Notes under the pieces: generated by a model | The model's input: only the letters and a program-made list of their open reading frames with translations | Databases searched by the model: none | What the model was told of the DNA's origin: nothing | Position numbers and translations under genes: made by a program | NCBI RefSeq assembly: GCF_000374045.1 | Contig: NZ_KB893325.1 | Span: 104-64,103, forward strand | Source of the DNA: Segetibacter koreensis DSM 18137 | GTDB lineage: Bacteria > Bacteroidota > Bacteroidia > Chitinophagales > Chitinophagaceae | Direction of reading: 5' to 3' | Length of the DNA: 64,000 nucleotides | Part shown: positions 2,868 to 51,099 of the stretch, in pieces | How positions within the stretch are numbered: the stretch's first letter is position 1 | Layout: every line of letters starts with the position of its first letter

Positions 2868-3100
2868 ATTTCTCGATTGTCGATAGGCTTTAAAGATCGG
2901 CTTTAAAAAGTCAATTTAAATGAGGATATGTTTAAAAGGGATAGATTTATGTTTATAATATTGTAGGTAAGTTTTATTGAAAAAGAAATATTGAATCTTA
3001 TTAACTAAGTGAAACCAATTTATGTAAAAAAAACACATGATTTAAGCTTTCTACCTCTTCTAATGGGGAGCTAAACCAAAATGAAGATTTTTTTGGAATA

Positions 3101-46577: not shown

Positions 46578-47594
46578 ATGCTCAATCGCCGTAGATTTTT
46601 ACAATCGTCTTTTCTTGGATCATCATCATTGTTAGTTAATAAATACAAATTTGGCGAATTAAGTTCTCAAGGGCCAATTGTTTTATCAACGTGGTCACCA
46701 AACGTAAAAGCAAATGCGGCCGCATGGACTGTATTGGAAAAAAACGGCAGAGCGCTGGATGCTGTGGAAAAAGGTGTGCGGGTGACAGAGGCAGATCCAT
46801 CGGACCAAAGCGTTGGATATGGCGGCTTACCAGACCGGGATGGTAAAGTAACACTAGATGCATGTGTAATGGATGAAAATGGCAATTGCGGTGCTGTGTT
46901 TGCTCTCGAAAATATAATGCATCCTGTTTCTGTTGCGCGATTGGTAATGGAGAAGACACCGCATGTCCAGTTAACAGGTGAAGGAGCTTTACGATTTGCA
47001 CTTTCACAGGGATTTAAAAAAGAAAATTTGTTGACGACGGAAAGCGAAAAAGCTTGGAGAGAATGGTTGAAGACCTCTCACTACGACCCAATGATCACTG
47101 TTGATAATATAGAAGAAGAAATCAACAAACAAAAGCCAAAAGAAGTAAAAGGGCAAATTAATAATCATGATACGATAGGGATGCTTGCAATTGATGCGGC
47201 AGGAAACCTTAGCGGTGCATGCAGCACAAGTGGAATGGCGTACAAAATGAGTGGACGAGTTGGAGACTCTCCCATCATCGGGGCCGGCTTATTTGTAGAT
47301 AATGAGGTCGGAGCAGCTACGTCTACAGGAGTTGGTGAGGAAGTGATAAAAATTTGTGGGTCGCATACAGTTGTCGAACTTATGCGACAAGGCCTTTCAC
47401 CTGAAGAAGCATGCAAAAAAGCTGTTGAACGCATTGTAAAAAGAAACGGTATAAATGCTAAAACTATACAGGTAGGGTTTATTGCGCTAAACAAAAAGGG
47501 AGAATATGGCGGTTACTCAATAATGAAAAAATTTGATTATGGTGTGAGAAGTTTTCAGGGAGAAAAAGTATATAATGCTAAAAGCATTTATTAA
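46578..47594 (+). CDS. Exported N4-(beta-N-acetylglucosaminyl)-L-asparaginase
   Basis: A 338-residue Ntn hydrolase that cleaves the GlcNAc-Asn bond of N-linked glycopeptides. Autocleavage should occur in NNHDTIGM, before the nucleophile T199. The beta chain contains CSTSGMAYKMSGRVGDSPIIG and GAATSTGVGEE, the glycosylasparaginase motifs. The N terminus LNRRRFLQSSFLGSS is a Tat-like signal (RRxFLQ), so export is likely. Length is as usual (about 320-350). It has no operon partner, but it could act with the GH20 enzyme far upstream in breakdown of glycoproteins. Confidence 0.92.
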   Translation: MLNRRRFLQSSFLGSSSLLVNKYKFGELSSQGPIVLSTWSPNVKANAAAWTVLEKNGRALDAVEKGVRVTEADPSDQSVGYGGLPDRDGKVTLDACVMDENGNCGAVFALENIMHPVSVARLVMEKTPHVQLTGEGALRFALSQGFKKENLLTTESEKAWREWLKTSHYDPMITVDNIEEEINKQKPKEVKGQINNHDTIGMLAIDAAGNLSGACSTSGMAYKMSGRVGDSPIIGAGLFVDNEVGAATSTGVGEEVIKICGSHTVVELMRQGLSPEEACKKAVERIVKRNGINAKTIQVGFIALNKKGEYGGYSIMKKFDYGVRSFQGEKVYNAKSIY

Positions 47595-47620: not shown

Positions 47621-50600
47621 TTATTGAACTATCAATTTAATCAACTCAACTTTTAATTCAGAAGTTATTTTAAGAAAATAGGCCCCTGGTTTCAGAGCTA
47701 GGTCTGCCAGGTTGATGTCGATATTTGTTCCGCCTGCCGCTAATTTGTAGGTGCCTATTTGAGATATTTTACCAACCGCATCAACAATCTGCATTGTCTG
47801 GTTTCCTGAATAGTTGGCAGGAAAATAAATATTAAATCTTTTATGAACTGGATTTGGAAAAACCTTCGGACTTCTATAATTACCAGTAAAAGCCAGTTTT
47901 GTATTATCAGTTGTGATAACTTCTGAAGGGTCGTCACAGGATGGCCTGGAATGAGAATTTTGAATAGGTGCAGAACTAATTAATGCTTTGGCAGAAGCTA
48001 TTGTTACTGTGTCAATAGTTAAAAGCAATTGAGGCTTGTTCAGTGCATTTTCTCTACTATTAAATCTTACTTTTTTATCTCCAAGAGTTGCATCTTGTAG
48101 CGACAGGCTTACAATTTTATCTCCGGCCAAGTGATCTCTTACAAACTGGGTGACATCTATTTCGTAATATTTTTTTTCATAGTTGCAAGCCACAGAGCCT
48201 AGAGCAGTTCCCGTAACGGAAGGAGCATTATTCCATGTAATGCCATTTTCCGTCCAACGCTGTTCTACTGCAAAGGCTGAAATGTTCACCATCCCAAAGC
48301 TTTCAATGTTGTTACCATACAATTGCAGAATAGCACGATAAACATGTTTTATAGTATCGGGAAGTTTAAATGAAAGGTAAGCTGACCGGTTAAATCGAAT
48401 AGCAGTAGAACCTTTTATAATTAAAGAATCTGCATTACCATAATTTTTAGCTGCAGAATCTCCTGCACGTGTATAAGCATCTTCGATCGGTAGTAATGTT
48501 TTTTTAACTGCCGCTATTATTACCTTTCTTGGCTTTAGCAACATAATCCTGCCATCTCCTCCAATTTCAGAAACGTATATATTTCCGGTGGTTGTATCTT
48601 CAGTCATATCTAAAGGATCATTAAAACCCGAAAAGCCTTCTATTGAATAACCTTCTGTGGCGCTAACAATATCATTATTCGGGCCACCCGGCGTAAGGGT
48701 TATAATGTCATCATGCTGGCTATAACGTACTACCAGCAATTTTCCTTTCAACGCTCCGTTAAAACTATTACTCTTATATTCTATCACGCCATCAGGAGAT
48801 GCATTTGTTTGAAAGTCATAAGAATATCCACGATAATTTGCATCGTGTGCTGTCCCTAAGGGATAATCTCTTACCTGTGCGGGATCTATGGGATCCGTAG
48901 GATTGCCTCCATTCATTACATACTCTCCCCTTAAAGGATTGGGATGACCGTAATATCCTCCATTTACAACTCTGAATAAAAAGTCCTTTTGCGTTTGCTG
49001 AACATTTGTCAATGCAGGAACCGAAGGACCATTATAAACAGAACCGTCAGGTCGAAGAATACCATTTACAGAAGCAGGCGTATTGCCTCCAGCAGCAGAG
49101 CCATTGGTTGGTACGTAAAGACTGCCGTTACTATGCCAAACGAGATCATAAGCATTCCGAGTACCGGAAGCATAAATGGTCAAAGGGGCATTTGGGTCGT
49201 AAGGATTGTAAGTGCCTCCTGTTTCAGCAGTACGCACATCAAGTGGAGTATGGCCGAGTTTGGAAACATCTAACCGAAGAACAGCAGCGGAAAGCAGGCG
49301 CTCATCCCTATATCCCCAGGTCTTGTCCCTGTACCCCATAGCGGATGTACTACCCTGAGTAAAATACAAAGCCAGGTCAGGACCAAAAGCGATGCTGTTG
49401 GAAAGATGATCTTTTTTCGACCTTGGCAGATTAATTAATATGTCCTCAACCGTCTCAAGGTTAGGACCGCTAAGTCTTGATAACTTTCCATCCATATCGG
49501 GTCCGTTTATAAATACGTAGCTGTTATGGGTAACCCAGGCTACAAGGTTAGTCGCGGTGGAGGAAGGGTCAAAAGCAAAACCAATAGCAAGCCTTTGCAT
49601 GCGGCTGCCGTAGGCGTCCTGCAAAGAGAACAATAGTTCTGGTGCTGTAAGTGTACCATCAGGGTTTATAATAAATCTTTTAATTACTCCGTCAATTGTT
49701 AAGGCATATAATTTTCCGTCAGGGCCAATAGTAAGACTTGTGTGTTGACCTGAAGCATTAGGCAGCTCGTTTCTGTCAAATTTAACGGCAGTTAGATCAC
49801 CTCCCGAACTTGCCCCAGTTGTAAAGGTGCTCGAATAAGGAATGAATGAAGAGTCTGATAAATCCTTTACCCCTGCGCTTATAGTGAATCTATATGTTGT
49901 GCTTACTTTTAGTGGATTAGCGGGCACTAAAGTTATTGCATCTCCCCCACCCGTACCATTAACATTTGATGGTACTACAGCTCCAGTCCCTTCTTCGGTC
50001 AGGTAAACAGTACTTGTTGTAATGGTAGCATTATTTATTCCACCGTTTGGCAGTTTTAAAATACTTGTTGATATAGAAGTATTTTCGCTGACATTTACAG
50101 AACTGTTATCAGGATTTACCGCCACAACTGAAGGCCTTTTGATCCTGGAAGGTCTTACAATAATCCAATTTATTTTTGTATTGCTGCCTCCTATTGCATC
50201 AACCGTTAAAAACCCATCAGAAACCGATACAATAACAGTTGCAGACTTAAACTTGGTGGTTGAGTTTGGAATAAAACTGTTAATGGCGTTTATACCTTCA
50301 ACATTTATTGAATGTCTGCTATTGGTACTTATGTCATCCCCGACAGAAACAGTTACTTCATAATTTCCGTTGACGACCCTTGCTTGCCATATACCTTCAA
50401 TACGGGTTCCTTTAAATACATAGGAAGATAAATCCTCGCCTTGCATATGTATGAAAGTTGATAACAAAGTATCTTGAGGAGAAATCCTTTTACGGGTATT
50501 TTTAGTAAGGTCGAGAGTTGTTTTATCCAATCTTTTTATCCACCCATAAGCCATTCCATTGCCTTGATACGCAGAACTGCGTAAGCCAAATGGTTGGCCG

Positions 50601-51099
50601 AAATCACTAAGCCAACCGTCAGGAGGTATTGTAGCAGAATCTTGAAAATTAACTTTAAAATTTGCCAATCTACCTGTTGTGGTTATTATTACATTTAATT
50701 GAATATTAAGAACTGCACTATCATACTCCGATGCAGAAGCAGTTACAACAGCATAATAAGTACCAACCGCAAGGCTTGCGGCATCAAAATTAAAAGAGAT
50801 TTCAGATCCTGTAACATAGTCAATACCATTAAGCATTTTACCATTTACTGTAAGCCATATTGGTATATTACCAGAGCCATCAACAGCATTTAATTTTGCA
50901 CTGACTGGATTTTTGTCAGTGGTTACAATGTACTCAGACAGACTCTGAGAACCTCCTTGTTGTACTTCTGCCGTCTCTGAAGATTGGTTAATAATATAGA
51001 CTGCGTGGCTGACTGAGCTAAAGCCGGGGAGCTCATGTTTTCAAAAACAAATACAACGAAACAACCTTTTAAGATAAATGAAAGTATAAATCTCTTCAT
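47621..51099 (-). CDS. Large T9SS-secreted multidomain protein (frameshifted near its 5' end)
   Basis: The body reads without stop from 51040 to 47621 (about 1140 codons). From N to C it shows a BACON/Ig-like segment with TVNGKMLNGIDY, a malectin-like domain, a Big_5/Ig-like domain (PDNSSVNVSENTSIS), a sorbosone/glucose-dehydrogenase-like propeller (LTIGPDGKLYALTIDGVIKRF and FAFDPS), a DNRLRE/CBM96-type domain (SLIIKGSTAIRFNRSAYLSF, WNNAP) and a T9SS sorting tail (FPNPVHKRFNIYF). A matching signal peptide (MKRFILSFILKGCF..., ALAQSA) starts at 51099 but lies in another frame. The in-frame ATG at 50836 falls inside a domain and is not a real start. Confidence 0.85.
50923..51040 (-). other. Frameshift zone of the large secreted protein
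   Basis: The signal-peptide frame (58 codons from 51099) ends at a TAA at 50923. The body frame is open only from 51040 downwards and has no ATG, GTG or TTG before 50836. The join is best placed around 50970-51000 and needs a net loss of one base. No classical slippery heptamer is apparent, so a mutation or sequence error is likelier than programmed slippage. Confidence 0.8.

Follow-up and report, generated by a model that had tools for sequence, protein, structure and literature searches.

A one-base frame break between the signal peptide and the body of a T9SS-cargo paralogue in Segetibacter koreensis, most likely an ordinary recent frameshift or a one-base sequence error

T9SS type A cargo proteins bearing CBM96/DNRLRE and GSDH-like domains are recognized by a C-terminal sorting domain (Por_Secre_tail; PF18962/TIGR04183). 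In the 64,000-nucleotide stretch of Segetibacter koreensis DSM 18137 DNA analysed here (hereafter designated the window), a minus-strand gene shares this sorting domain, with scores above the curated cut-offs (37.6 bits versus 27 for PF18962 and 35.7 versus 23 for TIGR04183) that place it among the cargo genes, but differs from them in that its Sec signal peptide and its body lie in separate frames of the deposited sequence. It is alike to C1a and C1b, two T9SS-cargo paralogues of the same genome, both along the body and in the signal peptide. Programmed −1 frameshift genes, such as dnaX and those of IS transposases, contain overlapping frames in the −1 direction; the window gene shares overlapping −1 frames with these, but differs from them in lacking a slippery heptamer and a frame switch in its homologues, and no notable RNA structure is seen in its downstream fold. 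It also resembles the singleton frameshifted genes, or hypothetical pseudogenes, of GeneTack (PMC3711429): the window gene likewise shows a one-base break relative to intact homologues, has neither a repeat nor a slippery motif, and is not conserved as a broken gene in the homologues found. That class, too, does not distinguish errors from true indels (PMC3711429). A literature search combining the T9SS C-terminal domain, frameshift mutation, and paralog gave no match.

Reading of the three minus-strand frames placed the start of the signal peptide MKRFILSFILKGCFVVFVFENMSSPALAQ at ATG 51099 and the stop of its frame, TAA, at 50925–50923, with SATQSILL as the residues that follow MKRFILSFILKGCFVVFVFENMSSPALAQ and the last ones before the register is lost. 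The body frame, immediately preceded by a TGA at 51043 and stopping at 47621 (Table 1), is offset from the signal-peptide frame by one base, in the −1 direction, and the two frames overlap by 118 nt (50923–51040). An earlier reading made from the sequence alone (the sequence-only reading), whose coordinates coincide exactly with this overlap, had described a signal peptide and a body in different frames, with more than 1100 intact codons downstream; both points are borne out, the body frame containing 1,139 codons without a stop. Its statement that there is no alternative start holds only in part, since ATG 50836 is present in the body frame, although this codon is internal and yields a product of 1,071 residues without a signal peptide. 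As a route to secretion, this internal start was accordingly rejected, as was, for the same lack of a signal peptide, the CTG at 50941 located behind an AAGGAGG motif. A promoter search with the Bacteroidota consensus was uninformative, giving no match for the window gene, C1a, or C1b.

Table 1 Coordinates of the frames, domains, and neighbours of the window gene, and of the frame breaks in four other T9SS-cargo genes of the same genome
Feature	Coordinates	Strand	Basis or remark
Signal-peptide ORF, 58 aa plus stop	50923..51099	-	Three-frame reading; N-terminus comparison
Stretch holding the one-base loss versus three homologues	50985..50997	-	DNA alignment
Body open frame, 1,139 codons plus stop, −1 versus the signal-peptide frame	47621..51040	-	Frame reading
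First conventional start (ATG) in the body frame	50834..50836	-	Frame reading
Bacterial Ig-like domain, PF13205 Big_5, E 2.3e-12	49817..50140	-	Profile match
Glucose/sorbosone dehydrogenase-like stretch, PF07995, 22.4 bits, under the curated cut-off of 25	49091..49468	-	Profile match
CBM96/DNRLRE domain, PF24517 E 2.1e-46, NF033679 E 5.4e-26	48017..48502	-	Profile match
T9SS type A C-terminal sorting domain, PF18962 E 2.8e-9, TIGR04183 E 6.4e-9	47627..47863	-	Profile match
Beta-aspartyl-peptidase-like gene, PF01112, converging with the frameshifted gene	46578-47594	+	Profile match
Ammonium transporter gene (amt), TIGR00836	51590-52903	-	Profile match
Frame break, C15 cargo gene	L173:3290-3335 (G000:C15)		Junction in repetitive sequence
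Two frame breaks, C17 cargo gene	L174:2437-2563 and 3012-3039 (G000:C17)		Authors' reading
Frame break, C32 cargo gene	L175:2949-2988 (G000:C32)		Junction in repetitive sequence
Frame break, C36 cargo gene	L176 4438-4447 (G000:C36)	-	Reverse strand

Five genes of the genome are related along the body, namely, the window gene, C1a and C1b, which stand in tandem on contig C1, and one gene each on C24 and C6. In both C1a and C1b, the signal peptide leads into the body in a single frame. The signal-peptide ORF was compared with the starts of 79 other T9SS-cargo open frames in this genome, a set that includes a few starts cut by breaks or contig ends and that contains C1b, C1a, and C6 as paralogues of this body; the highest scores were those of C1b (L075, 75), C1a (L084, 68), and C6 (L096, 56), and the next-best score after these three was 45. 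Moreover, the DNA similarity to C1a and C1b continues across the junction, with a sole single-base gap that occurs in the window gene only and that the aligner puts between 50992 and 50991, its placement being uncertain within about 50997–50985. G233, a homologue found in a different genus of the family, has the same length as C1a and C1b at the junction, so that the frame break of the window gene is seen against three intact homologues; the upstream similarity of G233 is short, and its homologous part sits inside a longer protein with no signal peptide directly before it. Because the best N-terminal matches are the very paralogues of the body, the C1 copies are read in one frame, and the alignment differs by one base, the signal peptide and the body are the halves of one ancestral gene with a single-base loss, and neither chance neighbours nor a fusion.

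The domain order varies among these relatives. The G233 homologue lies within a 2,603-codon open frame (L037:4365-12173), where the CBM96-like stretch comes ahead of the Ig-like and dehydrogenase-like parts, that is, the modules are rearranged. The C24 paralogue (L035:3491-5653 of G000:C24, minus strand) stops after the dehydrogenase-like part, and no CBM96 or T9SS sorting-domain match was found downstream of it in the 9-kb stretch searched. Beyond the own genome, the N-terminal 466 residues of the body gave a single match at E ≤ 0.001 among nine other genomes of the genus, a weak one in G009 (E 4.7e-5, residues 289–397) that does not reach the junction. The larger genome sets, both samples from larger groups and both including the own genome, gave matches at 1e-20 in the own genome and G233 only (294 family genomes) and matches in 12 of 396 order genomes; among the order-genome matches listed, those starting no more than five residues behind the junction are again confined to the own genome and G233. 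A scan of named genomes yielded 16 loci, the best of which is 44% identical over residues 65–825, short of the junction. In G008, the neighbouring amt gene is present with 88% identity, but a different gene follows it, so that this genome offers no orthologous locus for comparison.

The junction was then inspected for features by which a split gene might be read as a whole. Phase variation, in which a reversible indel or recombination would toggle the secretion of the protein, would suit a secreted protein that has paralogues; against it, no homopolymer longer than 5 occurs between 51150 and 50880 and none longer than 2 in the junction itself (50997–50985), and no tandem unit of 2–6 bases is present in more than two consecutive copies between 51060 and 50915, so that the repeats which characterize slipped-strand phase variation, whether homopolymeric or tandem, are absent from the site. 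A DNA search of the genome with the junction stretch returned only the stretch itself, and with no second copy, there is no apparent sign at this site of a collapsed repeat in the assembly or of gene conversion by a closely similar donor. Programmed −1 ribosomal frameshifting, or transcriptional slippage, would join the signal peptide to the body during expression. The required shift is indeed −1, and the overlap leaves room for it and includes the AAGGAGG motif (50958–50952). However, the overlap contains no X XXY YYZ slippery heptamer, the two best near-slippery sites, each with three of the four conditions, are both situated upstream of the homology-defined junction, and there is no long run in the overlap on which the polymerase might slip. 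The downstream RNA gave a 91-nt pseudoknot-free fold of −17.5 kcal/mol, with a z value of −0.93 relative to 200 mononucleotide shuffles. Furthermore, none of the three aligned homologues (C1a, C1b, and G233) shows a frame switch or requires a shift, and a near-slippery site is absent from the examined overlap in two of four other broken cargo genes described below. With no repeat or heptamer, no unusual fold in the 91 nt downstream, and no second copy by DNA search, both repeat-driven phase variation and programmed slippage are unsupported; we regard the former as very unlikely and the latter as still more improbable.

Of the four origins offered by the sequence-only reading, a recent pseudogene and a sequence error are thus retained, while phase variation (no repeat) and programmed slippage (no heptamer, no notable structure in the downstream fold, and no switch in any of the three homologues) lack support. 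Its argument from an intact downstream frame to a recent event also holds, with a rough figure attached: when 2.7% of random substitutions create a stop and indel-to-substitution ratios of 0.05–0.1 are assumed, the probability that a neutrally decaying body is still open is down to 5% once divergence reaches 0.8–1.3%. Because the body is open throughout, the deletion, if real, must be recent, with a neutral divergence of up to about 1%. Pairwise dN/dS values of the window gene against C1a and C1b are 0.097 and 0.103, respectively; with dS at 2.3, near saturation, these values are rough, and a ratio of about 0.1 informs solely on the distant past. Where a column is invariant among the other five members, the window gene deviates at 14 of 333 (4.2%), compared by the same test with 7 of 326 (2.1%) in C1a and 4 of 323 (1.2%) in C1b, which as sisters shield each other in this count, and with 23 of 342, 43 of 362, and 46 of 365 (6.7 to 12.6%) in C6, C24, and G233, respectively. 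The excess of the window gene over C1a and C1b counts against a recent deletion, subject to that mutual shielding.

A base-level sequencing or assembly error would mean that the organism has an intact gene and that the draft is one base short. Several observations are consistent with this: the draft is in 73 contigs and shows isolated Ns dispersed through some T9SS genes, one of these genes at a contig end; the body is without any stop; and unclustered frame breaks with BLASTp support are expected, in the GeneTack description, to be mostly sequencing errors rather than genuine indels (PMC3711429). Conversely, the junction has no homopolymer and, by DNA search, no second copy, and the 64-kb window contains no N.

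Other T9SS-cargo genes of the same genome served as a control. PF18962 gave 88 matches, of which the 81 above the cut-off were examined at their 5′ ends and the 7 below it were dropped; in 5 of the 81, the window gene included, the sorting-domain frame is severed from the upstream coding frame. Among the first 80, a hydrophobicity rule of our own making for an in-frame signal peptide was passed by 68 and failed by 12. The failures consist of four genes with an in-frame signal peptide by eye (L103, L106, L117, and L133), two that run off the contig end (L091 and L135), one masked by N (L108), and five with a frame switch (L098, L104, L113, which is the window gene, L118, and L146); in the 81st match, too, the signal peptide is in frame by eye. 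Among the 68 passes, two look false but were not counted as broken: L093 lies at a contig end, and L141 is a fragment of 102 codons that contains an N and has no upstream coding frame. The assembly has weak spots at L093:151-572 (start of G000:C13), where a T9SS-cargo gene contains scattered single Ns and is identical in places to the end of contig C15, and at L108:624-1108 (G000:C8), where a 485-base run of N falls within a T9SS-cargo gene.

The four other broken cargo genes are on contigs C15, C17, C32, and C36, and all six breaks in the five genes are in the −1 direction, as would result from a deletion-prone error process. No motif common to the junctions was seen, and the frames behind the breaks of the other four genes extend over 140 to 911 codons; for these reasons, the other breaks do not look programmed. 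The junction stretches of the C15 and C32 genes have 46 and 30 genome matches, respectively (query counted), and repeat collapse may lie behind the breaks in these two genes.

Ordinary genes were sampled in 464 kb, comprising 20 stretches chosen regardless of content together with the window, of which 379 kb was called coding. The frame-switch detector output 3 of 52 adjacent pairs, all of them ordinary neighbouring genes according to our reading of the translations, and no frame break was judged real in the 379 kb of sampled coding sequence. The detector flagged 40 of 60 simulated one-base deletions (20 missed) and 2 of 60 unmodified genes, the former figure being probably optimistic because the test genes overlap the training genes; the break of the window gene is itself invisible to the detector, as the signal-peptide part is too short. 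If breaks were evenly distributed, the chance of all five broken genes falling in cargo would be about 0.02, as calculated by hand from 214 kb of cargo and an effective sample of 253 kb (379 kb × 40/60), a rough contrast in that the cargo control and the ordinary-gene sample relied on different methods. Since no ordinary gene of the sample was judged to be broken, base errors seem uncommon in such genes, which favours a true deletion; on the other side, the detector misses and the training overlap imply that the sample may understate errors in ordinary genes, and the repetitive setting of two broken cargo genes, the scattered Ns, and the GeneTack expectation speak for an error. On this balance, we hold an error in the draft to be a substantial possibility, to be rated somewhat below even.

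Our preferred reading, held at a little better than even confidence, is that the loss of a single base recently inactivated this copy among several paralogues, leaving a young pseudogene or loss-of-function allele. The gene is one of five relatives for secreted carbohydrate-binding/dehydrogenase-like proteins. The alignment shows that the loss of one base directly behind the signal-peptide region has thrown the exported body out of frame with its signal peptide. In the deposited sequence, translation from ATG 51099 yields a 58-residue peptide ending at 50925, and the body, if made from an internal start, would lack a signal peptide and presumably could not reach the T9SS. The loss would be recent, with the remaining 1,125 codons open and conservation inside the range of the other copies, and may be tolerated because paralogues remain; redundancy, tolerance, and loss of function are all what we infer for this gene from its sequence and those of its relatives. 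A more far-reaching proposal, which we consider scarcely credible at present, is that the five −1-broken cargo genes are non-random and that the lineage keeps a restorable reservoir of silenced secreted-protein genes, thereby varying its secretome, with the source being either mutation biased towards deletions or slippage at a low level of an undescribed kind.

Collectively, the window gene is most likely an ordinary, recently frameshifted T9SS-secreted paralogue or the product of a one-base sequence error, and probably involves no new kind of gene control. By itself, it has little significance: in a paralogue of a secreted protein, one base was lost or was missed in sequencing. For annotation, it is a caution, as a gene caller choosing the first ATG would place the start at 50836 and lose the signal peptide. 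The occurrence of 5 broken genes among 81 cargo matches, against none in the ordinary sample, may help to gauge either the turnover of the secretome or the extent of assembly error among repetitive secreted proteins.
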